DNA of 53,116 nt from Bacteroidales bacterium (GTDB taxonomy: Bacteria > Bacteroidota > Bacteroidia > Bacteroidales > F082): the NCBI GenBank assembly GCA_017645245.1, contig JAGCPG010000126.1, positions 1-53,116 on the forward strand, written 5' to 3'. The notes under the pieces were generated by a model, which saw only the letters and a list, made by a program, of their open reading frames with translations, made no database searches and was not told the DNA's origin. The translations under genes and the position numbers were made by a program. Numbering within the stretch: the first letter of the stretch is position 1; each line of letters opens with the position of its first letter. This document shows, piece after piece, positions 25,712 through 46,684 of this stretch.

Positions 25712-27133
25712 ATGGCTGACACGATTACCATACGGAAGGGGCTCGACATTCCCATTGCTGGCGCCGCTGAACGACGGATCGCCAACGCATTGGGCATCAG
25801 GACATACGCTGTGAAGCCCACGGATTTTGTGGGTCTCACGCCACGATTGATGGTTGAGGAAGACGCTATTGTTGCCGTGGGTGATGCGTTGTTTTGCGAC
25901 AAGCACGACGAGCGCATCTTATTTACTTCGCCCATAAGCGGCCAAGTGAAAGCCATTGTAAGAGGCGAGAAACGCCGGTTGGAAGCCGTAGTGGTAGAAG
26001 CTCAGCAAGAGGATTCACCGAAAGTTTACGATATCCCACAGAATGCCGATGAAATCAAGGTGTTGATGCTGCGTTGCGGCTTGTGGACGATGCTCCGCCA
26101 GCGGCCTTTTGGGGTGATCGCCAACCCCGACGACAAGCCCAAGGCCATCTTTGTGAGTGCTTTCGACAGTGCTCCGTTGGCGCCGGATTACGATTTCATC
26201 TTGCAAGGCAAGGAGGAGTTCTTTAAGAAAGGTCTGGAAATCCTTTCCAACTTCACCTCAGGCCAAGTCCACGTTTGTTTCCGTCCAGATCAAGGACTCG
26301 CGAAACACCTCTCACCTCTCACCTCTCATCTCTCACCTCATTACCTGAAAGGTCCGCATCCCGCGGGAAACATCGGCACCCAAATCGCCCACATCGACCC
26401 CATCAACAAGGGCGAGGTTGTTTGGACCATGAATCCCCAAGACGTGGCGGTGCTAGGCGAGTTGGTCACGACGGGCGTTTACCGTCCCGAAAAAGTGATT
26501 GCCGTGGCTGGACCACAGATCAAGAATCCGCATTACTATCGTATCAAGGCGGGGGCGTGTGCGGCTGGCATCGTCGCCGAGCAGGTACTTAATCCCGAGT
26601 ATCCTAAAATGGAATCTACCGAGGATGTGAAGGAAAACCGCATCATTTCGGGCAACATCCTGAGCGGCACCCAGATTGCCACTGACGGCTTCATTGGCGC
26701 CTACGACAGCCTGCTCAGCATTCTTCCCGAAGGCGACTATTACGACTTTATGGGTTGGCTGATGCCAGGATTCAAGAAATACAGCTTTTCGAGGACTTTC
26801 CTCAGCGGATTCCTTCCCAAAAACGGCTTCAAGCCCTTTGGAATCCGAATTCCCCGTTTTTCAAGCTATTGGAAGTTCGACACCAACACCCATGGTGACG
26901 TGCGCCCCTTGGTTTTCACCGGCAATTTCGAGCGCGTTTTCCCCTTCAACATCTACCCCACCCAACTCATCAAGGCCTGCATCGTCGGCGACATCGACCT
27001 GATGGAGCAGCTCGGCATCTACGAAGTAGAGCCCGAGGATTTCGCCTTGTGCGAGTTTATCGATGTTTCGAAGACTGATATTCAGAGCATTATCAGGGAA
27101 GGATTAGAACTGATCAGGAAAGAAAGCGTTTAG
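25712..27133 (+). CDS. nqrA: Na+-translocating NADH:quinone reductase subunit A
   Basis: A 473-residue NqrA, the peripheral subunit of the sodium-pumping NADH:quinone reductase at the cytoplasmic face. The N-terminus (KGLDIPIAGAA), ISGQVKAI, and GPHPAGNIGTQIAHIDP are diagnostic. Between about residues 198 and 213 it carries an extra [13 protein letters not shown] stretch encoded by a CTCACCT heptamer array, in a position that is variable among homologues as I recall them. The reading frame is intact through the array. Unusually, two unrelated genes lie between nqrA and nqrB. Confidence 0.95.
   Translation: MADTITIRKGLDIPIAGAAERRIANALGIRTYAVKPTDFVGLTPRLMVEEDAIVAVGDALFCDKHDERILFTSPISGQVKAIVRGEKRRLEAVVVEAQQEDSPKVYDIPQNADEIKVLMLRCGLWTMLRQRPFGVIANPDDKPKAIFVSAFDSAPLAPDYDFILQGKEEFFKKGLEILSNFTSGQVHVCFRPDQGLAKHLSPLTSHLSPHYLKGPHPAGNIGTQIAHIDPINKGEVVWTMNPQDVAVLGELVTTGVYRPEKVIAVAGPQIKNPHYYRIKAGACAAGIVAEQVLNPEYPKMESTEDVKENRIISGNILSGTQIATDGFIGAYDSLLSILPEGDYYDFMGWLMPGFKKYSFSRTFLSGFLPKNGFKPFGIRIPRFSSYWKFDTNTHGDVRPLVFTGNFERVFPFNIYPTQLIKACIVGDIDLMEQLGIYEVEPEDFALCEFIDVSKTDIQSIIREGLELIRKESV
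26311..26338 (+). repeat. heptamer array in nqrA
   Basis: Four tandem 7-mers: CTCACCT, CTCACCT, CTCATCT, CTCACCT. They are flanked by partial units (CACCT at 26306-26310, TTACCT at 26341-26346). The array is translated in frame as part of [11 protein letters not shown]. It is not a multiple of three, so a one-unit change would shift the frame. Confidence 0.9.
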
Positions 27134-27179
27134 CGAAATGAATTCCCACATGGAAAAACAATATTTCGACAATAATCAC

Positions 27180-27187
27180 TATTTTTG
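27180..27187 (+). promoter_or_regulatory. -7 box TATTTTTG of the DUF3990 gene
   Basis: An exact TAnnTTTG box inside the nqr operon. It ends only 4 nt before an ATG at 27192, so the message from it would be almost leaderless. It argues for that ATG over the upstream in-frame ATG at 27138. Confidence 0.45.
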
Positions 27188-27191
27188 CAAT

Positions 27192-27656
27192 ATGAATGAA
27201 TTATTGACCATATTCCACGGGAGCAATGTTATGGTTGAAACGCCAAAAATCCTTGTCATGGGTTTTTATAAGGATTTCGGCTATGGCTTTTATTGCACCA
27301 ATATTGAGAAACAAGCCCAAAAATGGGCCATCACCAAAAAAGGAGCCAGCATCGTATCCATCTATCAATACCAGCCTAATCCTTCCTTAAAAATCAAGAC
27401 ATTCCCAACCATGACAGAGGAATGGCTTGATTTTGTGATTAATTGCAGACGTGGCATCGCCCATAATTATGACATCGTGGAAGGTCCCATGGCTGACGAC
27501 CAAATCTGGGATTATGTCGAAGACTTGATGGATGGCACGATTACCAGAGAGGCGTTTTGGGTACTTGTAAAATACAAATATCCCACCCATCAAATTGTGT
27601 TCTGTACTCCAGAATCCCTGTCAACACTCAAATTTGAAAGGAGCTACGACCTATGA
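27192..27656 (+). CDS. DUF3990 protein, candidate ADP-ribosyltransferase-like toxin
   Basis: About 154 residues from the ATG at 27192. The features match DUF3990 as I recall it: an IFHGSN start, VETPKI, DFGYGFYCT, a QAQKWA helix, EWLDFV, a GPMADD segment and a C-terminal HQIVFCTPESL. The family has been placed near the ADP-ribosyltransferase fold and often travels with a DUF3791-type partner, in a toxin-antitoxin-like way. An upstream ATG at 27138 would add 18 residues that resemble nothing in the family. The stop overlaps the next start by 4 nt. Toxicity is inference. Confidence 0.7.
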   Translation: MNELLTIFHGSNVMVETPKILVMGFYKDFGYGFYCTNIEKQAQKWAITKKGASIVSIYQYQPNPSLKIKTFPTMTEEWLDFVINCRRGIAHNYDIVEGPMADDQIWDYVEDLMDGTITREAFWVLVKYKYPTHQIVFCTPESLSTLKFERSYDL

Positions 27657-28123
27657 CGAACTTGTATTTCCCCGACGAGGCAATTAAGACGGATGATCTT
27701 TATTTCGTTTGTTATATGATTGAGCGAATTGCAAGACAACTCAAACAACCCAACAAATATGTTGTCAACGCCATGGGTCACGATGAGTTGGTGAAAAAGC
27801 TTTCGCTGGCAGATGTGCTCCACGCCGAAAATCCTTTGGCTGTGACAGCTGATTGGATTGAGGAATACCATTTGCAATCGGGAAAGCACGATGTTACCAA
27901 GGTCAATCCGAACCTTTGCGAAAAGATCCCTACAGCCACTCAGATGGGAAAGGTTTACAAGCGACTGATATTAAGCACTTTGAGCAGCAACGAGGATTAC
28001 GCCGATGGCATCATTCGGGTTTATAACAACCCCATTTGTGAGGACCTCGACAACTACAACGGGAGCGCCTATTACGAGCCTTCGCCCTATATTACAAGAA
28101 GTTATTATGCTGGAGGTTTTTAA
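27653..28123 (+). CDS. DUF3791-like partner of DUF3990
   Basis: A 156-residue acidic, soluble protein coupled to the DUF3990 gene by a 4-nt overlap. It has an N-terminal helical part (DDLYFVCYMIERIA, then NKYVVNAMGHDEL and LSLADVLHAENP). The C-terminal half ends NYNGSAYYEPSPYITRSY. I recall similar proteins beside DUF3990 genes in Bacteroidales, where they are the presumed antitoxin or regulator. The last 17 nt overlap the start of nqrB in another frame, so the pair is built tightly into the operon. No DNA-binding motif is obvious. Confidence 0.6.
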   Translation: MTNLYFPDEAIKTDDLYFVCYMIERIARQLKQPNKYVVNAMGHDELVKKLSLADVLHAENPLAVTADWIEEYHLQSGKHDVTKVNPNLCEKIPTATQMGKVYKRLILSTLSSNEDYADGIIRVYNNPICEDLDNYNGSAYYEPSPYITRSYYAGGF

Positions 28124-29297
28124 AGGCAACATTCGTCGTTTTTTCGACCGACTCAAACCCACCTTCAACGAGGGGGGCAAGCTGTCGTGGCTGGGATCGA
28201 CGTTTGAGGCGTTTGAGACGTTTGCGTTCACACCGAATCGGGTGACCAAGCAGGGTTGCCATGTGCGTGACGCGGTGGATCTGAAACGGGCAATGATCAC
28301 CGTGGTGATCGCCTTGATTCCCGCGATGCTGTTTGGCATGTGGAACATTGGATATCAACATTACAATGCGGTAGCCTCACCTCTCACCTCTCACCTCTCA
28401 ATTCTCACCTGCTTCTGGTTTGGATTCTTGAGAATGTTGCCGCTTTTGGCTGTTTCCTATATCGTCGGCTTGACCATCGAGTTCGCCTTTGCTCAAATAA
28501 GGCATCATCAAGTCAATGAAGGCTTTTTGGTCACGGGATTTCTGATCCCGATGATCGTGCCGGTGACCACGCCGTTGTGGCAATTGGCGCTTGCCACCGC
28601 CTTTGCCGTCATCATTGGCAAGGAGGCCTTTGGCGGCACGGGGATGAACTTCCTCAACCCCGCACTGGTGGCTAGGGCGTTCCTCTTCTTCGCCTACCCC
28701 ACCCGCATGTCGGGTGACAACGTATGGATTGCCAACGACCTCTGGGGTACCGACGCCATCGTTGGAGCTACGCCATTGGGTGAGCTTGCCGCCGGATTAC
28801 AGCCTTCCGCCTCGGCTTTGGATATGTTCATCGGCACCATCCCAGGATCGACTTGTGAAACTTCAACAATTGCGGTCGCACTCGGTGCGACCCTACTACT
28901 GATCACTGGCATCGCCAGTTGGCGCATCATGCTCTCAGTGATGCTGGGCGGCGGCTTGATGGGCCTGGCTTTCAACCTCATCGGGGCCAATGAATACATG
29001 GATTTGCCGTTCTATTACCACTACCTGATGGGCGGCTTTATGTTCGGCGCGGTCTTTATGGCCACCGATCCCGTGACGGCGGCACAGACCAACATCGGAA
29101 AGTGGATCTACGGACTGCTCATCGGCATCTTTGCCGTAATGCTCCGTGTGGTCAACCCGGCCTATCCCGAAGGCATGATGCTCAGCATCTTGCTCATGAA
29201 CTGCTTCGCACCGCTAATTGACCATTGCGTGATCGCACGCAATATCAAGATGCGCCAAAAAAGGGCACAAGTTAAACCTAAAGCCACCACAAGATGA
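28107..29297 (+). CDS. nqrB: Na+-translocating NADH:quinone reductase subunit B
   Basis: A 396-residue membrane subunit of Nqr. The N-terminal cytoplasmic part ends HVRDAVDLKR, followed by about ten membrane spans. IVGATPLG (about 218) contains the Thr expected to bind FMN covalently. The first ATG that keeps the conserved N-terminus is at 28107, inside the preceding gene. After the first span (about 90-102) the loop is replaced by SPLTSHLSILT, encoded by a heptamer array. The stop overlaps nqrC by 4 nt. Confidence 0.93.
   Translation: MLEVFKGNIRRFFDRLKPTFNEGGKLSWLGSTFEAFETFAFTPNRVTKQGCHVRDAVDLKRAMITVVIALIPAMLFGMWNIGYQHYNAVASPLTSHLSILTCFWFGFLRMLPLLAVSYIVGLTIEFAFAQIRHHQVNEGFLVTGFLIPMIVPVTTPLWQLALATAFAVIIGKEAFGGTGMNFLNPALVARAFLFFAYPTRMSGDNVWIANDLWGTDAIVGATPLGELAAGLQPSASALDMFIGTIPGSTCETSTIAVALGATLLLITGIASWRIMLSVMLGGGLMGLAFNLIGANEYMDLPFYYHYLMGGFMFGAVFMATDPVTAAQTNIGKWIYGLLIGIFAVMLRVVNPAYPEGMMLSILLMNCFAPLIDHCVIARNIKMRQKRAQVKPKATTR
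28376..28410 (+). repeat. heptamer array in nqrB
   Basis: Five tandem 7-mers (35 bp): CTCACCT three times, CTCAATT, CTCACCT. The array is in frame in the loop between the first two predicted membrane spans of NqrB. Confidence 0.92.
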
Positions 29298-29824
29298 AGA
29301 GAGACATCAACAGCAACGGCTATATCTTCTTATACATCAGCATCTTAACAGTGGTGGTAGCGGTGCTGTTGACCGGTTCGTCGTTATGGCTCCAGCCTTA
29401 TCAACAGCGAAACAAAGAAAACGAAAAACGCGTAAAAATACTCGAAGCGGCAGGCGTTGGGGAAAATGGAAAGATTGAGTTGATTGAAGGCGAGCACCCC
29501 ATTTATCTCGTCAACGACTCCATCAGCGTGGTACCCATGCAGGGCAAGGGCCTTTGGGGTCCCATCTCAGGCTATATCGCCATTGCGCCCGACGGCAAAA
29601 CCATCGTCGGCGCCAACTTCGACCATAAATCTGAAACCCCCGGACTGGGCGGTGAGATCACTACGGAGAAGTTCCAAAGCCAGTTCAAGGGAAAACAGAT
29701 CGCGAGCGACGGCTATTACATCCCCGTGGAATTCGACGCCATCACGGGAGCTACCAAGACTTCGAATGGCGTTAAAGATATGATTGACAATACGATGCAA
29801 CAGTACTATTGGCATGAACCATAA
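29294..29824 (+). CDS. nqrC: Na+-translocating NADH:quinone reductase subunit C
   Basis: A 176-residue NqrC with one N-terminal membrane span (about 10-33) and a periplasmic FMN-binding domain. The TGAT motif (ITGATKTSNGV, about 154-164) holds the Thr for covalent FMN. It appears short: about 30 residues separate the segment after the span from GLWGPISGYIA, fewer than in the NqrC proteins I recall (above 200 residues). The frame is open and the flavin site is kept, so it is probably functional. It overlaps nqrB by 4 nt and nqrD by 11 nt. Confidence 0.9.
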   Translation: MKRDINSNGYIFLYISILTVVVAVLLTGSSLWLQPYQQRNKENEKRVKILEAAGVGENGKIELIEGEHPIYLVNDSISVVPMQGKGLWGPISGYIAIAPDGKTIVGANFDHKSETPGLGGEITTEKFQSQFKGKQIASDGYYIPVEFDAITGATKTSNGVKDMIDNTMQQYYWHEP

Positions 29825-30419
29825 AAAGCTCCTCATAGAACCCCTGCGCAAAGCGAATCCCGTCACCGTGCTGGTGCTGGGCATCTGCTCATGCCTGGCG
29901 GTGACCGCCCAGCTGAAGCCCGCCTTGGTAATGGGTGCCTCGGTGACGGTGGTGACGGCGCTTTCCAACTTCATCATCTCGCTGTTGCGCAAAGGCATCC
30001 CCAACCGCATCCGCATCATCGTCCAACTGGTGGTGGTGGCCACTTTGGTCATCCTGATTGACCAATTCCTGAAGGCTTTCGCCTACGACGTCAGCAAGCG
30101 GCTTTCGGTGTATGTGGGCTTGATCATCACCAACTGCATCATCATGGGTCGGTTGGAGGCATTCGCCCTATCGCACGGCCCTTGGGAGTCGTTCCTCGAC
30201 GGCTTGGGCAACGGCTTGGGTTACAGCTTAATCCTCGTCATCGTGGCCTTCTTCCGCGAATTGCTCGGCTCTGGAACCCTGTTAGGCTATCAAGTCATCC
30301 CGCAGTCGTTCTATGAGGCTGGTTATCAAAACAATGGACTGATGATATTGCCACCAATGGCCTTGATCATCATCGGCATCATCATATGGATTAACAACCG
30401 TAAAACCGAATCGAAATGA
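29814..30419 (+). CDS. nqrD: Na+-translocating NADH:quinone reductase subunit D
   Basis: A 201-residue integral membrane subunit with about six spans, including the conserved CSCLAVTAQLKPALVMG and TNCIIMGRLEAFA segments. These carry Cys residues that, with NqrE, hold the intramembrane iron-sulfur centre. The start at ATG 29814 gives MNHKKLLIEPL, the usual beginning; an upstream in-frame ATG at 29784 lies inside nqrC. Its stop overlaps the nqrE start by 4 nt. Confidence 0.95.
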   Translation: MNHKKLLIEPLRKANPVTVLVLGICSCLAVTAQLKPALVMGASVTVVTALSNFIISLLRKGIPNRIRIIVQLVVVATLVILIDQFLKAFAYDVSKRLSVYVGLIITNCIIMGRLEAFALSHGPWESFLDGLGNGLGYSLILVIVAFFRELLGSGTLLGYQVIPQSFYEAGYQNNGLMILPPMALIIIGIIIWINNRKTESK

Positions 30420-31030
30420 GCTTGTTCAACCTTTTCTTAAAATCGGTTTTCCTTGACAACATGATCTTCGCCTATTTCCTAGGCATGTGCTCCTATTTGG
30501 CCGTGTCGAAAACAGTGAAGACCAGTGCGGGTTTGGGTTTGGCGGTGACGTTCGTGTTGGTGGTTACAGTTCCCGTCAACTATCTGGTTAACAAATACTT
30601 GTTGGCTCCCGGGGCGCTGGCTTGGATCAATCCGAGTTGGGCTTCGCTCGATTTGAGTTTCCTCACCTATATCATATTCATCGCCATCATCGCGGCCATC
30701 GTGCAGATTTTGGAGATGATCATCGAGACTTTCACGCCTGCGTTACATTCCGCCTTGGGCATCTTCCTGCCTTTGATCGCTGTGAATTGTGCCATCCTGG
30801 GCTGCTCGCTCTTCATGCAGGAGCGCGGCTTCAGCAACGTAGGCGAAGCGGCGGTGTTCGGACTTGGCTCGGGTATCGGCTGGCTGTTGGCCATTGTGGC
30901 CATTGCCGCCATCCGCGAAAAACTGCGTTATTCCAAGATTCCAAAAGGTCTTGATGGCGTAGGAATTTCATTCATTATCACCGGCTTGATGGGAATCGCC
31001 TTCATGGCGTTCATGGGCATAAAACTATAG
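30416..31030 (+). CDS. nqrE: Na+-translocating NADH:quinone reductase subunit E
   Basis: A 204-residue membrane subunit, paralogous to NqrD, with about six spans. The FLGMCSYLAVSKTVKTSAGLG and NCAILGCSLFMQERGF segments contain the conserved Cys positions of the NqrD/NqrE iron-sulfur site. It is distinguished from RnfA by operon context. It is 3 bp upstream of nqrF. Confidence 0.95.
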   Translation: MSLFNLFLKSVFLDNMIFAYFLGMCSYLAVSKTVKTSAGLGLAVTFVLVVTVPVNYLVNKYLLAPGALAWINPSWASLDLSFLTYIIFIAIIAAIVQILEMIIETFTPALHSALGIFLPLIAVNCAILGCSLFMQERGFSNVGEAAVFGLGSGIGWLLAIVAIAAIREKLRYSKIPKGLDGVGISFIITGLMGIAFMAFMGIKL

Positions 31031-31033
31031 GCT

Positions 31034-32347
31034 ATGAGTTTCACTGGCACCTTGATATTGAGTCTCGTCGTTTTTCTGGGCATCATCCTGCTGCTCGTGG
31101 CCTTGCTGCTCTTTGTACGCAACAAGCTGACGCCCAAGGGCAAGGTGACCATCACCATCAACAATGACAAGCAATTGGAAGTGCAGCCTGGCAGTTCGCT
31201 TATGGCCACTTTAGCTGACGAAAAGGTGTTTTTGCCGTCAGCCTGCGGCGGCAAGGGCAACTGCGGACAGTGCAAATGCCGTGTGGTGGAAGGCGGAGGC
31301 ACGATTCTTCCCACCGAAACTGGCTATTTCACCCGAAAGCAGATACAGGACCATTGGCGACTGGGCTGTCAGGTGAAGGTGAAGGAAAACCTGAAGATCA
31401 TTGTACCGCAATCGGTGCTCGACGTCAAGGAATATGAGTGTACGGTAGTCTCAAACCGCAACGTGGCTACCTTTATCAAGGAATTCAAGGTGCGACTTCC
31501 CGAGGGTGCGCACATGGACTTTATCCCAGGCTCCTACGCCCAGATCCGTATCCCGAAGTTCAACCTAAAATATGCCGATTTCGATAAAGAACTCATTGGT
31601 AAAGAATATCTTCCCGCATGGGAGAAGTTTAAGATGTTCGACCTGCGCTGCGTGAACACCGAGCCCACCATCCGAGCCTACTCCATGGCCAACTATCCCG
31701 CCGAGGGTGACGTATTTATGCTCACCGTGCGTATCGCCACACCGCCTTTCAAACCTGACCGTTCTGGCTTCATGAATGTGAATCCTGGCATCGCCTCGTC
31801 CTTCATCTTCTCCCTGAAACCAGGCGATAAAGTCTATATGTCAGGGCCTTTCGGCGAGTTCCACGTGAAAGAACATGATACCTCTCACCTTTCACCTCTC
31901 ACCTCTCACCTCCCAGAGATGGTCTGGATTGGCGGCGGAGCAGGAATGGCACCATTGCGTGCGCAGATTATGCATCTGACTAAAACCCTAAACACCCGCG
32001 ATCGCGAGATGCACTATTTCTACGGTGCAAGGGCTATGAACGAAGTCTTCTACCTGAACGATTTCCGCCAACTTGAAAAGGACTTCCCCAACTTCCATTT
32101 CCATCTGGCTTTGGACCGTCCCGATCCCGCCGCCGACGCAGCTGGCATCCCCTACACAGCGGGCTTTGTGCATCAAGTGATGCTCGACACCTATTTAAAT
32201 CGCCATCCCGCTCCCGAGGACATCGAATACTATATGTGCGGTCCTGGCCCGATGAGCGCCGCCGTAGTCAACATGCTCGACAACTTGGGCGTGCCTTCGG
32301 AGAACATCCTTTACGACGATTTTGGGGGCGACAAACCGAAAGCTTGA
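31034..32347 (+). CDS. nqrF: Na+-translocating NADH:quinone reductase subunit F
   Basis: A 437-residue NADH-oxidising subunit. It has one N-terminal membrane span and a ferredoxin-like 2Fe-2S domain (Cys71, Cys77, Cys80 and a fourth Cys near 114). A ferredoxin-reductase module follows with FAD site RAYSMANYP and NAD site GGGAGMAPLR. Between GPFGEFHVKE and the NAD site it has an added [13 protein letters not shown] segment encoded by heptamer repeats (about 281-294), replacing a short acidic turn in homologues I recall. It is the last gene of the operon. The downstream spacer holds the promoter of the acyl-ACP synthetase gene. Confidence 0.95.
   Translation: MSFTGTLILSLVVFLGIILLLVALLLFVRNKLTPKGKVTITINNDKQLEVQPGSSLMATLADEKVFLPSACGGKGNCGQCKCRVVEGGGTILPTETGYFTRKQIQDHWRLGCQVKVKENLKIIVPQSVLDVKEYECTVVSNRNVATFIKEFKVRLPEGAHMDFIPGSYAQIRIPKFNLKYADFDKELIGKEYLPAWEKFKMFDLRCVNTEPTIRAYSMANYPAEGDVFMLTVRIATPPFKPDRSGFMNVNPGIASSFIFSLKPGDKVYMSGPFGEFHVKEHDTSHLSPLTSHLPEMVWIGGGAGMAPLRAQIMHLTKTLNTRDREMHYFYGARAMNEVFYLNDFRQLEKDFPNFHFHLALDRPDPAADAAGIPYTAGFVHQVMLDTYLNRHPAPEDIEYYMCGPGPMSAAVVNMLDNLGVPSENILYDDFGGDKPKA
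31884..31911 (+). repeat. heptamer array in nqrF
   Basis: Four tandem 7-mers: CTCACCT, TTCACCT, CTCACCT, CTCACCT, preceded by a partial ACCT. The array is in frame, between the FAD and NAD domains of NqrF. Confidence 0.92.
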
Positions 32348-32353
32348 CTTGGA

Positions 32354-32385
32354 TTTGTAAATCGTAAAGATTTTTACTATTTTTG
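32354..32385 (+). promoter_or_regulatory. promoter of the acyl-ACP synthetase operon
   Basis: A -33 TTTG at 32354-32357 and a -7 TATTTTTG at 32378-32385 are separated by 20 bp, the ideal Bacteroidota spacing. This is the best-formed promoter in the window. It rules out an in-frame TTG at 32383 as start of the next gene. Confidence 0.75.
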
Positions 32386-32415
32386 CCTTTTCTTTCTATC
32401 AAAAAATTGAAACAA

Positions 32416-33906: not shown

Positions 33907-33911
33907 GACCT

Positions 33912-34154
33912 ATGCAAAGAGAAGACATATTCAACGGATTGAAAGAAATCCTGACCCTGATCAAACCTTCGATGGACCTATCATCAGTTACTGAAGCATC
34001 GCAACTCGTCCGTGACGTAGGCCTCGACTCGCTGACCATCCTGTTGCTCAGCCTCGCCGTTGAAAACAAGTTCGGATTCAAGTTCGAAGGCCAGCCCAAG
34101 TTCAACACCGTGGGCGAAGTGATTGACTATATCGGTTCACACACAACAAAGTAA
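33912..34154 (+). CDS. acyl carrier protein
   Basis: An 80-residue acyl carrier protein. The phosphopantetheine attachment Ser40 lies in GLDSLTILLL, the usual DSL motif on helix 2. It is acidic and has the expected length. It is a dedicated second ACP by context, placed between an acyl-ACP synthetase and an N-acyltransferase-like gene with gaps of 5 and 3 bp. It probably carries the fatty acyl chain for sphingolipid synthesis rather than serving bulk fatty-acid synthesis. Confidence 0.9.
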   Translation: MQREDIFNGLKEILTLIKPSMDLSSVTEASQLVRDVGLDSLTILLLSLAVENKFGFKFEGQPKFNTVGEVIDYIGSHTTK

Positions 34155-34157
34155 GCT

Positions 34158-37263: not shown

Positions 37264-37282
37264 TTAATCCATTTTAAAGATG

Positions 37283-37290: not shown

Positions 37291-37291
37291 G

Positions 37292-37314
37292 AAAAAAAAC
37301 GTTTTTCCAAACGT
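37292..37314 (-). terminator. intrinsic terminator of the HD gene
   Basis: On the minus strand, ACGTTT pairs with AAACGT around a 4-nt loop (plus coordinates 37299-37304 and 37309-37314), followed by a run of eight T. It ends transcription coming from the HD-domain gene before the spt promoter. Confidence 0.65.
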
Positions 37315-37351
37315 CTTTTTCTTGTTTTACATCTTTTGAACCCCAGAAAAA

Positions 37352-37972: not shown

Positions 37973-37974
37973 GG

Positions 37975-39081: not shown

Positions 39082-39092
39082 GGCAAAATGTT

Positions 39093-40352
39093 TTAATACC
39101 GCTCCACAAAATCCCTCACCAGCTTGAACACCGGCTCATAGCTCTCGAAACGGACGGTCTTGTAGGTATCGTAGATGGTATGGTAATACGGGAAAGCGTC
39201 TCCTTCCTGATTCTCGAGGAAGATGCAAGGCACATGGCGTGTAGCAAAGGGATAATGGTCGCTGTTGCCGGCTAATTCGCCACGGTTCAAAGCCTTGAAA
39301 TAATGCTGCTCATCATTGATTTTCTCAAAGAGGTTGAAGCCGCGCATGCCCTCGTCGCTCACCTCGCAGTACTGCACGGGATTGTTGTCGCCGATCATGT
39401 CCAAGTTGAAGAGATACTTGATCTGCTCCAGCGGCACCAAGGGGTTCTTGGCATAGAATTCCGAGCCTCTAAGATTGGCATCCTCGCCCGAGAAGGCAAT
39501 GAAATACATGTCGTATTCTGGACGGTTTTTGGCATAATAAGCGGCCAACGTAACGATGGCAGCGGTACCCGAGGCGTTGTCGTTGGCACCAGGGTAATAC
39601 ACCTTTTTGCCGAGGTTGCCAAGATGGTCGTAATGGGCAGTAAACACAAAGCAACTATCGTGCTTCCGGCCTTCCACCTTGGCGATCACGTTGAAGAGCT
39701 CATAGTCCTTCAGGAACTCATTGTCGATGTCGGCCTTCACGGTCTTGATGCCTTCGACGGCTTCGGGCGTCATCCAGATGATGGGCTTTTCCACCACCCG
39801 ATGGCCGTAAGCCTTATAGAACTTGATGGGCGAAGTCCAGGTTTGGATGAGACCGGCGTTGGTGCACTCGCCAGCCTTCTGCAGGCGGGAGAAGTCCTTT
39901 CCATGCTTGTAGGCAAACCAAAATTCACAGACCACTAAGCAGTTGGCATATTCGGGCTTGGCCAGGTCGGCGAACATCCTTTCAGGATCGTAATTCACCG
40001 TATCTACATGATACACAGGAAATTCTCCATGAACACCAGGGGAATATTCGCGCATGGAATAATCCACACCCGGGGTGAGCTTTTTGCCATCGGCCCACAG
40101 CTTCATCTTGCCGTTGAAGGTGTTGATGTCGATGGTAAAAGGCTGGCAGATGACCTCGTCAACGCCAGCCTTTTGGAATTCCTTTTGAAGGTATTTTCCA
40201 GCCTTGTTGGCACCGCCTTTGGCATAGCCGCGGCCTTGGTATTTCGAAGAGCTCAGCTCCTTCACGACCTTCTTGTAATGCGCCATATCCTGGGCGCTCA
40301 GCTGCAAGGCGGCAAAAGCCAGCAGTAGGATGAAAAACCTTTTCATATTCAT
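39093..40352 (-). CDS. M28-family zinc peptidase, secreted
   Basis: A 419-residue peptidase with a signal peptide (MKRFFILLLAFAALQLSAQ). The M28 metal ligands are visible: H and D in AHYDHLG (about 238-241), the bridging Asp in GANDNASG (about 256), Glu in SGEDANLRGSE, Asp in LDMIGD and His in YYHTIYD. An apical/PA-like insertion sits at about 100-200. It probably trims N-terminal amino acids or dipeptides in the periplasm. ATG 40352 overlaps the stop of the upstream lipoprotein gene (TAATG); a second ATG two codons later is possible. Confidence 0.92.
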   Translation of the reverse strand: MNMKRFFILLLAFAALQLSAQDMAHYKKVVKELSSSKYQGRGYAKGGANKAGKYLQKEFQKAGVDEVICQPFTIDINTFNGKMKLWADGKKLTPGVDYSMREYSPGVHGEFPVYHVDTVNYDPERMFADLAKPEYANCLVVCEFWFAYKHGKDFSRLQKAGECTNAGLIQTWTSPIKFYKAYGHRVVEKPIIWMTPEAVEGIKTVKADIDNEFLKDYELFNVIAKVEGRKHDSCFVFTAHYDHLGNLGKKVYYPGANDNASGTAAIVTLAAYYAKNRPEYDMYFIAFSGEDANLRGSEFYAKNPLVPLEQIKYLFNLDMIGDNNPVQYCEVSDEGMRGFNLFEKINDEQHYFKALNRGELAGNSDHYPFATRHVPCIFLENQEGDAFPYYHTIYDTYKTVRFESYEPVFKLVRDFVERY

Positions 40353-40897
40353 TATTTGAACTTGACGGATTTAAACACGTGTTGAGCTACCTCACCGCCC
40401 AATTGTTTCTCGAATTCAGGTTCGTAGCAAATGGCGATCGACACCATTTTGGGGCCATTGACCACGATGTAGTCGATTTGGGTGATTGATTCGCCTGGGG
40501 CGGTAGAGGTGAAATAGTTGTCACCGATTTCCACGTTGATACGATCACTGTAATCAAAAAACTCCATCATATCTTCGGCTTCCTTTTTAATGTCGTAATC
40601 TTCACCATACATCTGTGTGCTACCTGAGATGTCGATACGGTTGAAAGTGACGCCTTGGCTGTCGTCCTCAAGTGAGAAGACGGTACCTTCGTCACCCATC
40701 GCTTCGCCTCTACGGGTCATGCCTTCGGGGACCTCCACGGTAAAGCCATACTTGTCGTTGGTGTAAGTCATATAAGTGACTTCCTTGGGAGCTTTACCAT
40801 CTTTGGCTCCCTTCTTTGAGTTGGCACCATTCTGGTTGCCACAAGCAGCAAAAGTCATTGCCAATGCTGCGATTGCTAGAAATGCGAATTTTTTCAT
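40352..40897 (-). CDS. small lipoprotein of unknown function
   Basis: A 181-residue protein with a lipoprotein signal (lipobox TFAAC, Cys near 19). A Lys-rich linker and a beta-rich domain (YGFTVEVPEGM, then GITQIDYIVVNG-like strands) follow. I do not recognise a family. The fold resembles small PsbP/DUF1795-like domains that start with a YGFTVEVP pattern, but this is weak. It is first in a unit with the M28 peptidase, DUF362 and HD genes, and is translationally coupled to the M28 gene. Its promoter is the TATATTTG box at 40930-40937. Confidence 0.75.
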   Translation of the reverse strand: MKKFAFLAIAALAMTFAACGNQNGANSKKGAKDGKAPKEVTYMTYTNDKYGFTVEVPEGMTRRGEAMGDEGTVFSLEDDSQGVTFNRIDISGSTQMYGEDYDIKKEAEDMMEFFDYSDRINVEIGDNYFTSTAPGESITQIDYIVVNGPKMVSIAICYEPEFEKQLGGEVAQHVFKSVKFK

Positions 40898-40929
40898 TTT
40901 GATTGAGTTTAAAAGTTTGAAAAGCGAGG

Positions 40930-40937
40930 CAAATATA
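40930..40937 (-). promoter_or_regulatory. -7 box (TATATTTG on minus strand) of the lipoprotein-M28 unit
   Basis: CAAATATA on the plus strand, 33 bp upstream of the lipoprotein start, matches TAnnTTTG on the minus strand. Confidence 0.55.
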
Positions 40938-40963
40938 GGGTTTTTCCCAGAAAAAACAGCTAT

Positions 40964-41491
40964 TTAAAAAGAGTTTCCTTTTTCCAATTTCATCACTTTC
41001 ACAGGGGTATCATCACCGTGATAGAGATGGCTGCACCAATTGACCTGGCCCGTGTCGCGGAAGCCGCATTTCTCCATCACGCGACCTGATGCCGGGTTGT
41101 TGACGAAGAAATCGCTCCAAAGATTGTTGTACCCTTTCTCGTTGAAGCAGTAGTCGATCAAAAGCCGTAACGCCTCGGTGCAGATGCCCTGGTTCCAATA
41201 GGGTCGAGCCACCCAATAGCCCGCTTCGGCATCGTTCTCGTCGATGCTGATGTTGCTCTCACCATGAACGAAATAGCCAATGCAGCCGATGGCTTCGCCC
41301 GTCGCTTTCAGCTCGATGGCCCACATGTGATCACCGCTAAAAAGCGTACGGATAATCTCCAAACTTTCTTCCACGGACTTATGCGGAGGCCATCCGGCAC
41401 GAGGGCCCACCTCAGGATCGGAAGCGTATTTGTATAACGTTTCGGCGTCACTTTCACGCCACGGACGGAGCAATATTCTTTCTGTTTCCAT
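40964..41491 (-). CDS. GNAT acetyltransferase, RimJ/RimL-like
   Basis: A 175-residue GNAT enzyme of the Acetyltransf_3 type. It begins ETERILLRPWRESDA (2-16), then shows EAGYWVARPYWNQGICTEA (the acetyl-CoA-binding A region) and ASGRVMEKCGF near 140. These proteins acetylate N-termini or small amines; the substrate is unknown. The gene starts 18 bp after pyrG on the same strand and is probably cotranscribed. Confidence 0.88.
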   Translation of the reverse strand: METERILLRPWRESDAETLYKYASDPEVGPRAGWPPHKSVEESLEIIRTLFSGDHMWAIELKATGEAIGCIGYFVHGESNISIDENDAEAGYWVARPYWNQGICTEALRLLIDYCFNEKGYNNLWSDFFVNNPASGRVMEKCGFRDTGQVNWCSHLYHGDDTPVKVMKLEKGNSF

Positions 41492-41509
41492 TTTTCGAGA
41501 CCAGTTTAT

Positions 41510-43150
41510 TCATTTCAAGTTTTCAATGCAAGCTTTAACGAAATCCATGAACAACGGGTGCGGATGGAGTACCGTGGAGGAATACTCGGGATGGAACTGG
41601 GTGCCAATGTACCAGCGTAAGTTCGGGATCTCGACGATCTCCACGAGATTGGCTGCCGGGTTGATGCCTACACACTGCATACCGTGGCTTTGGAACTCAT
41701 CTTTGTAACGGTTGTTGAACTCGTAACGGTGACGGTGACGTTCATGGATGACGAGGTGAGAGCTGAGAGATGAGAGTTGAGAGGTGGCTGCCGCAGAATA
41801 TGCTTTTTCCGTCTTACTACCCTTGACAAGCTCGCAGTCGTAGGCGCCCAAACGCATGGTGCCGCCCATCTGGGTGATGTTTTTCTGCTCCTCCATGATG
41901 TCGATCACGTTATGCGGAGTGGTGGGATCCATCTCGCTACTGTTGGCATCTTTGTAACCCAGAACATTACGGGCAAATTCAATGACCATCATCTGCATAC
42001 CAAGACAGATGCCGAAAGTGGGAATATCATGGGTGCGGGTATATTCGGCAGCGATGATCTTGCCTTCGATGCCACGTTGACCGAAACCGGGACAGATGAC
42101 GATGCCCGCCATGCCTGCCAGTTGCTCGGCGACATTCTCACGGGTGATGAACTCGCTATTAATAAAATGTGTCTTCACCTTGCGATCGTTGTAAGTACCC
42201 GCATGGGCGAGGCTCTCCAAGATGCTCTTGTAGGCGTCCTGCAGGTCGTATTTGCCCACAATGCCGATGTTCACGATCTCAGTGGCGTTCTTGCGACGTT
42301 CCAAGAAGTTGCGCCAAGGTCCCAGCTCGGGCGTCGGACCAACCTCCATGCCCATCTTCTTCAGGATAATGGCATCGAGGTTTTGTCGCTGCATGTTGAC
42401 CGGCACTTCGTAGATGCTCGGCAGATCTTGGCTTTGGATGACTGCCTCCACATCGACGTTGCAGAAATGGGCCACTTTCGTCCGGATTTCATCGCTCAAG
42501 TCGTGTTCGGTACGCAAGACCAGGATATCAGGCTGGATACCTTGTCCCTGCAGCTGTTTCACGCTTGTCTGGGTAGGCTTGGTCTTCAGCTCGCCAGCGG
42601 CAGCCAAATACGGCACGTATGTAAGATGTACGTTCAAGGCCTTGCTGGAACCCAGCTCCCAACGCAGCTGACGGATAGCCTCCAGAAAAGGCTGGCTCTC
42701 AATGTCGCCGATGGTGCCGCCAATCTCAGTGATGACGAAGTCGAAATGCTCCTTGGTGGCGTTGAGCAGGATGCGACGCTTGATCTCATCGGTGATATGT
42801 GGCACCACCTGAATGGTCTTGCCGAGATAATCGCCGCGGCGTTCACGCTCGATGACGCTGAGATAGATTCGGCCGGTGGTCACGCTGTTGTCGCGAGTGG
42901 TCTGGATACCCGTAAAACGCTCGTAGTGACCGAGGTCGAGGTCGGTCTCAAACCCGTCGGCGGTCACATAACACTCGCCGTGCTCGTAAGGGTTCAACGT
43001 ACCCGGGTCAACATTGATGTAAGGGTCGAACTTCTGGATGGTGATTTTATAGCCGCGAGCCTGGAGCAGCTTGCCGATGGAGGCCGAGATAATGCCTTTT
43101 CCCAATGAAGAGGTCACACCTCCCGTGATGAAGATGTATCTTGTTTCCAT
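41510..43150 (-). CDS. pyrG: CTP synthase
   Basis: A 546-residue CTP synthase that aminates UTP using glutamine-derived ammonia and ATP. The N-terminal amidoligase domain begins ETRYIFITGGVTSSLGKG. The C-terminal class I glutaminase has the nucleophile in GICLGMQM (about 387) and the HPE of GTQFHPEYSS (about 525). Just before the conserved ERHRHRYE it carries an additional SAAATSQLSSLSSHL stretch (about 452-467) encoded by a heptamer array. The frame is intact and all key residues are present, so it should work. ATG 43150 is chosen because the conserved N-terminus starts there. Confidence 0.97.
   Translation of the reverse strand: METRYIFITGGVTSSLGKGIISASIGKLLQARGYKITIQKFDPYINVDPGTLNPYEHGECYVTADGFETDLDLGHYERFTGIQTTRDNSVTTGRIYLSVIERERRGDYLGKTIQVVPHITDEIKRRILLNATKEHFDFVITEIGGTIGDIESQPFLEAIRQLRWELGSSKALNVHLTYVPYLAAAGELKTKPTQTSVKQLQGQGIQPDILVLRTEHDLSDEIRTKVAHFCNVDVEAVIQSQDLPSIYEVPVNMQRQNLDAIILKKMGMEVGPTPELGPWRNFLERRKNATEIVNIGIVGKYDLQDAYKSILESLAHAGTYNDRKVKTHFINSEFITRENVAEQLAGMAGIVICPGFGQRGIEGKIIAAEYTRTHDIPTFGICLGMQMMVIEFARNVLGYKDANSSEMDPTTPHNVIDIMEEQKNITQMGGTMRLGAYDCELVKGSKTEKAYSAAATSQLSSLSSHLVIHERHRHRYEFNNRYKDEFQSHGMQCVGINPAANLVEIVEIPNLRWYIGTQFHPEYSSTVLHPHPLFMDFVKACIENLK
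41754..41781 (-). repeat. heptamer array in pyrG (degenerate)
   Basis: In the coding sense the units are CTCAACT, CTCATCT, CTCAGCT, CTCACCT, preceded by a partial CACCT. Each unit has a different base at position 5, so all four bases occur there. The CTCA-side strand is again the coding strand although pyrG is on the minus strand. Confidence 0.9.
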
Positions 43151-43177
43151 AATGCCATTTTTTGGAAAAACAAGGCG

Positions 43178-43185
43178 CAAAAATA
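43178..43185 (-). promoter_or_regulatory. pyrG -7 box (TATTTTTG on minus strand)
   Basis: CAAAAATA on the plus strand, 28 bp before the pyrG start. It is divergent from the sdh box, with only 20 bp between the two boxes. Confidence 0.6.
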
Positions 43186-43205
43186 AAAAATTCCTTTAAT
43201 AATCT

Positions 43206-43213
43206 TATCTTTG
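43206..43213 (+). promoter_or_regulatory. sdh operon -7 box TATCTTTG
   Basis: An exact TAnnTTTG box 19 bp before the sdhC start. Its upstream region overlaps the pyrG promoter, so the two divergent units share a very small control region. Confidence 0.6.
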
Positions 43214-43232
43214 CACTCAAATTTTCTTCGGT

Positions 43233-43877
43233 ATGAATCTCCCTAAAATACACTCTATCAGCAAGAAGATCGTCGTGGCATTGTTAGGAGCCTTCCTCAG
43301 CATCTTCCTTTTGTTCCATGCCAGTGCCAACCTCTGCATCTTGCGTCACGATGAAGGTGCTTGGTACAATGCTTTCTGCGATTTCATGGGCACCAATTAT
43401 ATTGTGAAAGCCTTTGAAATCATCTTGCTGGTGGCATTACTATCCCACATTGTTTTGGCGCTCTGGTTAGCCATCACCAACAAGAGGGCACGACCCCAAG
43501 GCTACAAAAAGCCACAACGCACCAAAACGCACTTTGGATCAAAGCTGCAAGTGTGGACGGGCATCCTGCTCCTCGCAGGCCTTATCGCGCATTTTATGGA
43601 TTTCTTTTTCGTCAAACTCGGCTGGGTTGACGGCAACCTCAATTTTTACCAACAGGCACGTGAAAAGTTTCAGATTCCTCACATTGCGATCTCTTATCTG
43701 ATCTTCTTTGTGGTGGTTTGGTTCCACATGCGCCACGGCTTCGCCGCCATGTTCCAGACCTTAGGTCTCTATAATTTTAAATACGGCAAAGCCATCGAAA
43801 TCATCGGCATCATCTATGCCACGGTGGTTTGCCTGATGTTTGCCGCCGTAGTCATCGGTGTTTATTTCGGTTTTTAA
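43233..43877 (+). CDS. sdhC: succinate dehydrogenase/fumarate reductase cytochrome b subunit
   Basis: A 214-residue membrane subunit with five predicted spans, of the Bacteroidota/epsilonproteobacterial diheme type. Conserved His residues for heme are visible in LFHASANL (about 28), [21 protein letters not shown] and elsewhere. It anchors the flavoprotein and iron-sulfur subunits and exchanges electrons with menaquinone. In an anaerobe it probably works mainly as a fumarate reductase. The spacer before sdhA contains a decayed heptamer array. Confidence 0.92.
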
Positions 43878-43880
43878 CCT

Positions 43881-43894
43881 CTCAATGCTCACCT
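43881..43894 (+). repeat. short heptamer remnant before sdhA
   Basis: CTCAATG and CTCACCT in tandem, preceded by a partial ACCT that begins in the sdhC stop region. It occupies most of the 23-bp sdhC-sdhA spacer, where the ribosome-binding region of sdhA would be. Confidence 0.7.
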
Positions 43895-43900
43895 CAAAAA

Positions 43901-45856
43901 ATGCTCGACTCAAAAATACCTTCCGGTCCTCTCGCTGAAAAATGGACCAATTATAAAAACTCGCAGAAATTGGTGAATCCTGCCAACAAGCGCAAACTCG
44001 ACATCATCGTGGTTGGTACAGGCTTGGCGGGAGCCTCGGCAGCCGCTTCGTTGGGTGCCTTGGGTTTCAATGTTGACATTTTCTGCATTCAGGACTCGCC
44101 GCGTCGCGCCCACAGCATCGCCGCCCAAGGCGGTATCAATGCAGCCAAGAACTACCAGAACGATGGCGACAGTGTGGAACGTCTGTTCCGCGACACCATC
44201 AAAGGCGGCGACTACCGTTCCCGTGAGGCCAACGTGTATCGTTTAGCCGAGGTCAGCGGCACCATCATCGACCAATGCGTGGCCCAAGGCGTACCTTTCG
44301 CCCGCGACTACGGCGGATTATTGGACAACCGCTCCTTCGGAGGCGCCCAAGTAAGCCGTACGTTTTATGCCAAAGGTCAGACGGGACAACAGCTTTTGTT
44401 GGGTGCTTACGGCGCATTGAGCCGTGAGATTGCCCGTGGCACGGTAAAGCTGCATGAGCGCCGCGAAATGATGGACTTGGTGATCAAGGATGGTAAAGCA
44501 AGGGGAATTATCGTGAGGAACCTCGTCACCGGCGATTTGGAACGCTATGCAGCCCATGCCGTGGTGTTGGCCACCGGCGGTTACGGCAACCTGTATTACC
44601 TATCCACCAACGCCATGAACAGCAACGGCAGCGCAGCCTGGGTATGCCACCGCAAAGGAGCCGCCTTTGCCAATCCCTGTTATGTGCAGATCCACCCGAC
44701 CTGCATCCCCGTGCACGGCGACTACCAAAGCAAGCTCACCCTGATGAGCGAGAGCCTGCGCAACGACGGCCGCATCTGGGTACCCAAGAAAAAAGAAGAT
44801 GCCGAGGCTGTTCGGGCAGGAAAAATGAGGGCCAACGACATCCCTGAGGAAGACCGCGACTATTACCTGGAGCGCCGTTATCCTGCCTTCGGCAACCTCG
44901 TTCCCCGTGACGTGGCCAGCCGAGCCGCCAAGGAACGCTGTGACGCCGGCTATGGCGTGGGCACAGGCTATGCCGTTTACTTAGACTTCGCTGATGCCAT
45001 ACGCCGATTGGGCAAGGATGCCGTCGAACAAAAATACGGCAATCTCTTCCAAATGTACCAAAAGATCACCGACGAGAACCCCTACGAGACTCCGATGATG
45101 ATCTATCCCGCCATCCATTACACCATGGGTGGCCTCTGGGTGGACTACGAACTGCAGACCACCATCCCAGGACTCTTCGCCGCTGGCGAAGCCAACTTCA
45201 GCGACCACGGCGCCAACCGCCTAGGCGCTTCAGCCTTGATGCAGGGACTGGCCGACGGCTATTATGTGTTGCCTTACACCTTGCAGAATTACCTTGCCGA
45301 TCAAATCAATGTAGGCAAAATCAAAACCGACACAGCAGAGTTTGACGAGGCTGAAAACAACGTCCGTCAACGCATTAATCGTCTGTTTCAAATAAGGGAA
45401 CCTCTTACCTCTCACCCCTCAACTCTCACCTCCGTTGATCACTTCCACAAGGCCCTAGGCAAGATCATGTGGGAATACTGCGGCATGGCCCGCAACACCG
45501 AGAGCCTCAACAAGGCCCAAAAGCTAGTCTCCGAGCTGGAGGATGAATTCTGGAAATCAGTCTTCGTCCCTGGCACCGCCAATGAGTTCAATCCCGAGCT
45601 GGAGAAGGCTTGCCGTTTGGAAGACTATTTCGAGTTAGCGCAACTGGTGATCGCCGATGCCTTGCACCGCGAGGAATCCTGCGGCGGGCATTTCCGCACC
45701 GAGCATCAAACCACTGATGGCGAGACCCTTCGCGACGACGACCGTTTCATGTATGTGGCCGCTTGGGAATACCAAGGTCACGGTCATCCCGAGACGATGG
45801 AAAAGGAACCCCTCAACTACGAACACATTCAGATCGCTACCCGTAATTACAAGTAA
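43901..45856 (+). CDS. sdhA: succinate dehydrogenase/fumarate reductase flavoprotein subunit
   Basis: A 651-residue flavoprotein. The FAD-binding [14 protein letters not shown] lies near 27-40. [14 protein letters not shown] holds the His expected to bind FAD covalently. [12 protein letters not shown] and the [12 protein letters not shown] region are present, and the C-terminal helical domain ends HEQI-like. Near residues 499-512 it has an inserted [11 protein letters not shown] encoded by heptamer repeats. The start ATG at 43901 gives [11 protein letters not shown]; a longer frame from 43829 would overlap sdhC. It is followed 3 bp later by sdhB. Confidence 0.95.
45404..45431 (+). repeat. heptamer array in sdhA
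   Basis: Four tandem 7-mers: CTTACCT, CTCACCC, CTCAACT, CTCACCT, preceded by a partial ACCT. The array is in frame in the C-terminal domain, before the conserved [17 protein letters not shown]. Confidence 0.88.
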
Positions 45857-45859
45857 GCC

Positions 45860-46654
45860 ATGAAGTTCACATTACATATTTGGAGACAGGAGTGCTCTAG
45901 GGCAAAAGGCCACTTCGAGACTTATAAAGTTGACAACATCAGCCCCGATTGCTCATTCCTTGAGATGCTTGACATCCTCAACGAACAGCTTATCACCGGC
46001 TCAACTCTCACCTCTCACCTCTCACCTTCCACCTCCCCCATAGCCCATCCCGTGTGTTTCGACAACGACTGTCGCGAGGGCATCTGCGGCATGTGTGGCT
46101 TGTATATCAACGGTCGTCCCCATGGCAACGACGACGGCATCACCACCTGCCAACTCCACATGCGCAAGTTTCATGACGGCGACGACATCTGGATCGAACC
46201 TTGGCGCGCCAAAGCCTTCCCTGTCATCCGCGACCTCGTGGTAGACCGTTCCGCCTTCGACAAGATCATCCAGGCGGGCGGCTACATCAGCACCACCACA
46301 GGCGGCGTCCCCGATGCCAACACCATCCCGATTCCCAAACACAAGGCTGACATGGCTATGGATGCGGCATCGTGCATCGGCTGCGGCGCTTGCGTGGCTG
46401 CCTGCAAGAACGCCAGCGCCATGCTATTTGTGGGCGCGAAGGTGAGCCACCTTGCCTTGTTGCCACAAGGCAAGGTTGAAGCCGCCGACCGTGTGAAAAA
46501 GATGGTATGCAAGATGGACGAGCTAGGCTTTGGAAGCTGCACCAACACCTACGCTTGCGAGGCCGAGTGCCCCAAACTCATCAAACGCCAAAACATCTCA
46601 CGCCTCAATCGCCACTGGATTGCCTCGCTACTGGGTCGGGACCGCAACTCTTAA
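45860..46654 (+). CDS. sdhB: succinate dehydrogenase/fumarate reductase iron-sulfur subunit
   Basis: A 264-residue iron-sulfur subunit. The N-terminal 2Fe-2S domain has CREGICGMC (about 71-79). The C-terminal domain has [12 protein letters not shown] (about 174) and [13 protein letters not shown] (about 229) for the 4Fe-4S and 3Fe-4S clusters. Directly before the first cluster motif (about 46-60) it carries [13 protein letters not shown], encoded by a heptamer array, where homologues I recall have a short turn. The frame is intact. It converges on yifB with a 24-bp gap. Confidence 0.95.
46000..46034 (+). repeat. heptamer array in sdhB
   Basis: Five tandem 7-mers (35 bp): CTCAACT, CTCACCT three times, TCCACCT. 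The array is in frame, about 12 codons upstream of the 2Fe-2S Cys motif. Confidence 0.92.
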
Positions 46655-46656
46655 CT

Positions 46657-46684
46657 TTTATCTCTAATCTTTTATCTCTCAACT
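46657..46684 (+). repeat. degenerate heptamer array between sdhB and yifB
   Basis: Four 7-mers in register: TTTATCT, CTAATCT, TTTATCT, CTCAACT. Further looser units (CGCAACT, CTTAACT) run back to 46643 across the sdhB stop. The array spans the convergent gene ends and includes the yifB stop codon. It looks like a decayed copy outside coding constraint. Confidence 0.6.

Follow-up and report, generated by a model that had tools for sequence, protein, structure and literature searches.

Tandem arrays of a 7-bp unit with the consensus CTCACCT lie in frame within six genes, nqrA, nqrB, nqrF, pyrG, sdhA, and sdhB, of a Bacteroidales bacterium (assembly GCA_017645245.1, contig JAGCPG010000126.1, positions 1 to 53,116; this 53,116-nt stretch, referred to below as the window, belongs to a genome of 2.44 Mb in 145 contigs that we call G000). 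The same unit is dispersed through G000, the inserts found within genes are lineage-specific and keep the reading frame, and in related species one and the same protein loop can be occupied by different repeats. We propose, with a probability of about 0.7, that dispersed heptanucleotide repeats spread in genomes and persist within genes where they are in frame, free of stop codons, and located in a permissive loop.

The six in-gene arrays of the window, and two degenerate arrays in spacers next to sdh genes, are real and far beyond chance. A search for three consecutive CTCANCT units allowing up to three mismatches gave 18 overlapping matches in the window, compared to a mean of 0.01 in 100 dinucleotide shuffles. 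All six in-gene arrays are on the coding strand of their hosts (the minus strand in the case of pyrG), within open frames of 264 to 675 amino acids, and are translated as an LTSHLSP-type peptide. An initial annotation, made from the sequence alone, had described four or five such units in six intact genes, the peptide, the two spacer arrays, and the lack of arrays left of 26 kb; pattern search, Tandem Repeats Finder (TRF), and inspection of open reading frames (ORFs) agree on each. The leftmost match starts at 26304, and further left TRF finds period-7 rows of only 2.1 copies, at 6569 and 18272, and no CTCANCT array. Of the six, the sdhA array is the most degenerate (lag-7 identity of 0.81, under our threshold of 0.87). 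The six coding arrays of the window are not palindromes, and no hairpin partner was found for any of them (hairpin score 5-7). The spacer array upstream of sdhA overlaps the stop codon of the preceding ORF (43233-43877), while the one downstream of sdhB holds the stop codons of both sdhB and a convergent minus-strand Mg-chelatase-type gene. A 16-bp repeat of 2.1 copies (43884-43916) also overlaps the array upstream of sdhA.

Table 1. Heptamer arrays of the window and the genes that carry or border them.
Feature	Position	Strand	TRF period-7 array	Basis or comment
nqrA (Na+-translocating NADH-quinone reductase subunit A)	25712..27133	+		ORF, PDB alignment
nqrA array, 5 CTCANCT-type units	26304..26338	+	26306-26339	loop replaced, not lengthened
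nqrB	28107..29297 (stretch used; listed ORF opens 28005)	+		ORF, PDB alignment
nqrB array, 5 units, read SPLTSHLSIL	28376..28410	+	28376-28410	pattern search, TRF, alignments
nqrF	31034..32347	+		ORF, PDB alignment
nqrF array, 4-5 units	31880..31912	+	31880-31912	pattern search, TRF, alignments
pyrG (CTP synthase), ATG at 43150	41510..43153 (stretch used)	-		ORF, PDB alignment
pyrG array, 5 units, read TSQLSSLSSHL	41754..41788	-	41747-41783	missing in closest relative G020, common to divergent G034
degenerate spacer array TTAACCT CTCAATG CTCACCT	43874..43894	+		stops 6 nt short of sdhA ATG (43901)
sdhA (succinate dehydrogenase / fumarate reductase flavoprotein)	43901..45856	+		ORF, PDB alignment
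sdhA array, degenerate, 4-5 units	45400..45432	+	45400-45432	pattern search, TRF, alignments
sdhB (iron-sulfur subunit)	45860..46654	+		ORF, PDB alignment
sdhB array, 5 units	46000..46035	+	46000-46035	pattern search, TRF, alignments
degenerate five-unit array CTTAACT TTTATCT CTAATCT TTTATCT CTCAACT	46650..46684	+		sdhB / convergent gene spacer

The unit recurs throughout G000. Three consecutive CTCANCT units are matched 162 times in the genome with up to two mismatches and 89 times with up to one, while the reversed control pattern gives 10 and 1 matches, respectively. Stretches around the arrays with at most one mismatch were fetched, plus two looser ones, and 62 distinct arrays were collected: 55 with at most one mismatch and seven with two, the census of the latter being incomplete and an array shared by the ends of contigs C22 and C60 being counted once. 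Twenty-three of the 62 are within genes (the six of the window and 17 others) and 39 are non-coding. The coding status was assigned by us and requires a frame that is open through the array. Outside the window, 23 arrays lie in ORFs of at least 150 amino acids, and six of these (L004, L005, L168, L182, L184, and L185) were placed with the non-coding arrays since their ORFs were judged, from composition and as a matter of judgement only, to be shadows of genes on the other strand; of the 17 retained, 12 were aligned with relatives, and L008, L012, L013, L159, and L177 stand outside the alignments. The additional hosts include aspartate-semialdehyde dehydrogenase (asd), biotin carboxylase, an APH/RapZ-type protein, UDP-sugar dehydrogenase, TilS, a di-haem peroxidase, a GH97 enzyme, a DUF4831 protein, and RNase H1. 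There are also an inositol-monophosphatase-family protein, which we take to be CysQ-like, a class-V aminotransferase, presumably SufS, and presumably mfd, names assigned from the sequences and from Pfam hits. The suggestion of the initial annotation that this is a dispersed element tolerant of coding sequence is thus borne out by the genome search.

Coding and non-coding arrays are alike in their frequent units. The arrays outside genes, which are the majority, are found in both orientations; arrays mostly consist of four to five imperfect units, and the consensus CTCACCT and its frequent variants are common to the 23 coding and the 39 other arrays. In both sets, unit positions 1 and 5 are the most variable and positions 4 and 7 the least. 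Position 5 had been named as the most variable one; position 1, however, departs from the consensus at least as often (consensus share of 0.821 at position 1 versus 0.848 at position 5 in coding arrays, and 0.746 versus 0.768 in the others). A difference is seen with respect to stop codons: as expected of a filter against stops, the variant CTAACCT, which contains TAA, makes up one of 112 coding units versus 15 of 177 others. All 23 coding arrays are in the sense orientation. The reverse complement, AGGTGAG, contains TGA, and since 7 and 3 are coprime, every frame encounters TGA within three units. It follows from the code that antisense CTCANCT copies cannot be read through, and for the same reason 12 of the 39 non-coding arrays overlap the stop codon at which a long antisense frame running into them ends.

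Alignments of the six window genes (26-30 rows per gene, G000 among them) were used to distinguish inserted from ancestral residues. At none of the six sites do order-level homologues have the array residues, and the shared loop residues by which ancestral protein sequence was to be recognized according to the initial annotation are therefore not seen. Nor was DNA-level heptamer periodicity seen at these loops in distant Bacteroidota among the aligned rows. At the sdhB, sdhA, pyrG, and nqrF sites, loops are shorter in order-level homologues and in many species of the same genus; PDB alignments, which cover nearly all of PyrG, NqrA, NqrF, SdhA, and SdhB, have gaps at the array of 13 residues in SdhB, 8 in SdhA, 12 in PyrG, and 11 in NqrF. 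The nqrB loop is shorter in order-level homologues; in most relatives of the same genus it has equal length but another sequence, and the PDB alignment splits into two pieces at the array. In the case of nqrA, the loop length is similar in all rows and the PDB-chain gap is just three residues. Judging from these alignments, the sdhB, sdhA, pyrG, and nqrF arrays are insertions, while nqrA and nqrB are mainly loop replacements, so that the earlier description of clean insertions where homologues have short loops holds for four sites but not for NqrA or, relative to most of the genus, for NqrB. When G000 is counted, an insert is present in two of 19 same-genus rows for pyrG and in four of 20 for sdhB.

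The same loops are occupied differently in relatives (one genome per species was compared). The sdhB loop, short in eight other rows compared at the DNA level, contains CTCACCT in G000, degenerate CTCAACT units in G020, a longer CTCAACT array in G008, and a CTCACTC-type heptamer in G034. The nqrB loop contains CTCACCT in both G000 and G034, and CTCAGCT in G020. In the sdhA loop, CTCAACT is found in G020, CTCAACT with one CTCACCT in G008, and an in-frame GTAGAGACG palindrome in G034 (L191). The nqrF loop contains a CTCCGTT-type heptamer in G034 and DNA of a type encoding PSTSSG in G033, G021, and G018, altered in G024; the nqrA loop contains GGATTGCTTCGTTCCTCGCAATGACG-type DNA in G029 and G033, interrupted in G007, G012, and G024. 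A like mixture is seen in the 12 further aligned genes, most clearly in asd, sufS, the GH97 gene, the UDP-sugar dehydrogenase gene, and tilS, and least clearly in the DUF4831 gene; arrays of another unit, ACGGAAA, fall within the sufS and GH97 loops of G008 and the RNase H loop of G020. An automatic lag-7 call at the 0.87 threshold, which misses loops that are heptameric by eye (including sdhA of G000 and sdhB of G020) and is applied to loops of varying length, scored 19 of 122 same-genus loops as heptameric (five being G000's own) compared to 48 of 12,300 random genomic 60-mers. Some of the other occupants are dispersed as well. Palindromes of the form GTAGAGACG...CGTCTCTAC were found in 53 of 60 genomes of the genus (e.g., G448, G433, and G012), with no control matches. 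The PSTSSG type is repeated within 100-kb samples of G033, G031, and G009, though not of G021, and a CCCC..GGGG palindrome is repeated within those of G021 and G033. The DCFVPRND type had single matches in G034 and G008 and none in the samples of species bearing it in nqrA, and dispersal is thus not demonstrated for this type.

From these sequence comparisons, CTCANCT is one of several species-specific heptamer units of the genus and not, as initially described, a single repeat family. Period 7 accounts for the majority of tandem arrays in five of eight same-genus relatives (10/14 in G020, 12/15 in G034, 10/12 in G008, 5/9 in G021, and 6/11 in G031, all from 100-kb samples; the value for G000, from the 53-kb window, is 6/7). 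Three consecutive ACGGARA units are matched 296 times in G008, 221 times in G023, and 77 times in G020 (the G020 counts are somewhat inflated, the assembly being listed at 8% contamination with at least two loci present twice), and not at all in G000; they are present in 11 of the 60 genus genomes searched, G000 included. CTCANCT itself, at up to one mismatch, ranges from 0 to 147 matches across 35 same-genus genomes, nine of which have none. The reversed-pattern control is weak for CTCAACT, whose reverse is its own rotation, and control counts are inflated in CTCAACT-rich genomes such as G002 and G003. In the order as a whole, exact CTCANCT triples occur in 27 of 393 genomes and 20 of 206 genera, with G000 and its genus counted, and the matches listed in the named scan include ruminant Bacteroidales metagenome-assembled genomes (MAGs) as well as other taxa.

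Several further occurrences were recorded. The highest count of exact triples in the scan of the order, 94, was in G285, a genome outside the genus and from another family, where the reversed control was also high (50). One MAG, RUG12856 (L118), has two separate CTCANCT arrays in a single open frame of 483 amino acids. In IMG/VR, CTCAACT or CTCAGCT arrays lie on viral contigs (L418-L497; e.g., L419, L471, L466, and L477), some with several per contig. Phage as a mobile vehicle was considered on the basis of 88 viral stretches; the 80 that were read have mostly CTCAACT and CTCAGCT types, and the idea led nowhere, the link to hosts not being examined.

The pyrG locus bears on how loop contents change hands. 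The PyrG protein of G000 is 94% identical to that of G020 and 76% identical to that of G034. Yet the inserts of G000 and G034 agree at 46 of 54 bases, including TGCGGCAGCC, whose final three bases are already part of the first degenerate unit of the array, and a CTCAGCT unit in the same place. In the flanking windows the order is reversed: G034 matches G000 at 41/60 and 44/60 positions, and G020, without the insert, at 47/60 and 49/60. The insert with its flanking bases looks like a short recombined tract. Two other loci demonstrate that the reading frame is at stake. In mfd of G000 (L012, contig C101, locus 568-588), one frame is open before the array and another one after it. In asd of G020 (L347, C8:274785-275490), an inverted heptamer pair, forming a hairpin, is accompanied by a frame change at the loop where asd of G000 has an in-frame array.

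We suggest that CTCANCT arrays represent one species-specific “dialect” of short, degenerate heptanucleotide repeats that multiply and turn over in the genus. Copies of one unit lie at many unrelated loci, mostly outside of genes and in both orientations. Within genes, the survivors would be those that keep the frame, are read without stops (for CTCANCT, in the sense orientation), and sit in a permissive loop. Occupied loops could later be mutated, exchanged by short-tract recombination, or replaced by other repeats, or the array could be lost. Spread within a genome would proceed by copying or ectopic recombination, with local expansion by slippage. We infer the direction of each replacement, and also that selection acts solely as a filter and that the array peptide has no function.

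Several points weigh against this proposal. The 23/23 sense orientation is partly built into the method, since a gene cut by an antisense array would be scored as non-coding. No G000 loci with shared non-repeat flanks were noticed when 12-nt flanks were compared by eye, and copying between loci thus lacks direct demonstration. Period 7 is not in the majority in G033 (1/12), G009 (4/18), and G017 (2/4). The pyrG pattern could alternatively reflect an old insert lost in many lineages. To these are added the homogeneity of neighboring units in G020 and the position of some non-coding arrays relative to start codons, which are described below with the explanations that they favor.

The first such explanation is a purely local origin, by which each array arose where it stands, by slippage from a seed present by chance, the polymerase having a preference for 7-nt steps, and nothing moves between loci. 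Heptanucleotides were found to be abundant in an earlier survey, for which a polymerase-based explanation was proposed (Mrazek et al. 2007, as reported in PMC4679880). In G020, moreover, units are homogeneous within arrays: neighboring units have the same base at position 5 in 0.864 of pairs, with 0.371 expected (18 arrays), which points to local expansion or homogenization there; it is not so in G000, where the agreement is 0.613 versus 0.630 expected. However, independent seeds would give many different units per genome, while in G000 a single unit is found at 55 distinct loci, close relatives have sharply different unit counts, and empty sites in sister species have no obvious seed, at least by eye. 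The presence of one unit at 55 loci, with close relatives having different ones, favors copying inside the genome over purely local seeds, and we consider local origin as the whole explanation to be rather unlikely.

Alternatively, the repeat may be a functional RNA or DNA element, a translation signal before start codons or a hairpin at convergent gene ends, with the coding copies a side effect or also used. Nine of the 39 non-coding arrays end 0-12 nt upstream of a sense ATG (and one upstream of an antisense one), compared to 1.2 expected for random positions within 400 nt, or 0.17 when 448 random positions outside long ORFs are used. In this analysis, start codons were assigned by us, an ATG being counted if followed by an open frame of at least 120 codons (60 if the frame runs off the stretch). 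A model of pure junk does not predict this enrichment, though start-proximal sense arrays are a minority of arrays. TAACTGA repeats are likewise reported just upstream of start codons (MacGregor, PMC4679880). There are also four inverted array pairs in G000 (L154 on C38, L161 on C33, L163 on C36, and L176 on C99) with strong predicted folding (-32.6 to -52.8 kcal/mol, z of -5.7 to -8.5), three of them between convergent open frames. A role in initiation or termination is thus possible for some non-coding arrays, with no fixed signal conserved between species: units differ from species to species, and CTCANCT has no match at up to one mismatch in the nine genomes mentioned above. The 23 array-bearing genes, in addition, come from many unrelated families, and a functional element as the general explanation appears unlikely. 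TCACCTC resembles the 3' end of 16S rRNA, but since the other heptamer units show no such likeness, this line was abandoned.

A dedicated trans-acting system could write the heptamers, each species having its own active unit or units that are copied genome-wide and re-write permissive loops of essential enzymes. We regard this as quite improbable; if true, the arrays would be a steady source of new protein loops and not slippage debris.

The possibility that the arrays are phase-variation switches, which toggle genes by a frame shift whenever a single 7-bp unit is gained or lost, agrees with the broken frame of mfd in G000. The hosts, however, are mostly core metabolic enzymes and not surface genes, and arrays mostly have four to five imperfect units. 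The other 22 coding arrays are in frames open throughout (a result that ORF-based selection favors, with four of the 22 outside the alignments). This explanation is very unlikely. Finally, that the arrays are ancestral protein loops or assembly errors is scarcely credible, since, despite the conserved NqrA loop length across the order and NqrB loops equally long in most same-genus relatives, order-level homologues and PDB chains reject an ancestral loop except at nqrA and, largely, nqrB, which are replacements, and heptamer arrays are present at several of the same loops in the independently assembled genomes G034 and G020, the latter matching a public MAG from water-buffalo caecum at 99.99% over 7,459 bases.

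Among known systems, cyanobacterial STRR heptamers and Rickettsia palindromic elements had been proposed as the nearest parallels. The former, known from Calothrix, occur as several dispersed units per genome, as is the case here, though with different sequences; coding inserts in housekeeping loops are not known to be part of their description. Rickettsia palindromic elements are dispersed, inserted in frame in protein genes, and tolerated, and they are longer palindromes. The heptamer parallel stands; that with Rickettsia fits the behavior, in-frame insertion within protein genes, but not the structure, since our arrays are short direct repeats and the six coding ones have no hairpin partner, in contrast to some non-coding G000 arrays, which are inverted pairs. 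At least one palindromic family is present as an alternative loop occupant.

The initial annotation knew of no description of this repeat, yet the heptanucleotide class is already in print, with some Bacteroidetes included (PMC4679880 and PMC4692102). Our arrays share with this class at least three tandem 7-bp units, dispersal (the 55 arrays with at most one mismatch), and period 7 as the commonest period in most samples. According to PMC4679880, where it reports Mrazek et al. 2007, heptanucleotides were the top long-repeat category in most genomes surveyed. The TAACTGA direct repeats, which the same source describes in marine Beggiatoaceae, Cyanobacteria, and some Bacteroidetes (MacGregor 2015, PMC4679880), resemble ours in the 7-bp unit, the small number of copies in each set, the large number of sets in a genome, and a patchy taxonomic distribution. 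They are often located just upstream of starts, a position at which our non-coding arrays are enriched but which only a minority of arrays occupy. The account in PMC4679880 also mentions a set in purC near its end and heptamers in a variable region of beta-prime that map to a surface loop. In contrast to CTCACCT, TAACTGA has a forward stop and is, in that account, mostly intergenic, while here 23 of 62 arrays are within genes and sister species fill the same loops with other units. The GGGAATC repeats of Xanthomonas and the GGGGA(C/T)T repeats of Nostoc are, in the description given in PMC4692102, dispersed degenerate heptamer arrays of mostly about four units, as ours are; unlike them, CTCANCT has no run of three G on either strand. 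STRR heptamers of cyanobacteria are mentioned in the same paper. No description of heptamer arrays in conserved Bacteroidales enzymes was found among the top-ranked literature results, most subscription papers being outside of the search, and the sole match to the literal repeat or peptide strings in the literature searched concerns a beetle.

Elsewhere in the window, two neighboring minus-strand ORFs (8161-10125 and 10157-12121) are each exactly 654 amino acids long and are possibly a tandem duplication; the former has no Pfam match.

The excess of heptanucleotides in bacterial genomes has long been noted without an accepted cause. With the class itself known, what is new is that multiple repeat families occupy conserved enzyme loops. 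Close species differ in the heptamers or other repeats that they have at loops of nqr, sdh, pyrG, sufS, tilS, and asd, and these loops form an aligned series of insertions, replacements, and losses within conserved genes. The spread of a 7-bp repeat through a genome and the conversion of repeat DNA into a protein loop thereby become testable questions. In this gut-type bacterium and its sister species, junk-like DNA can be watched on its way into essential proteins.

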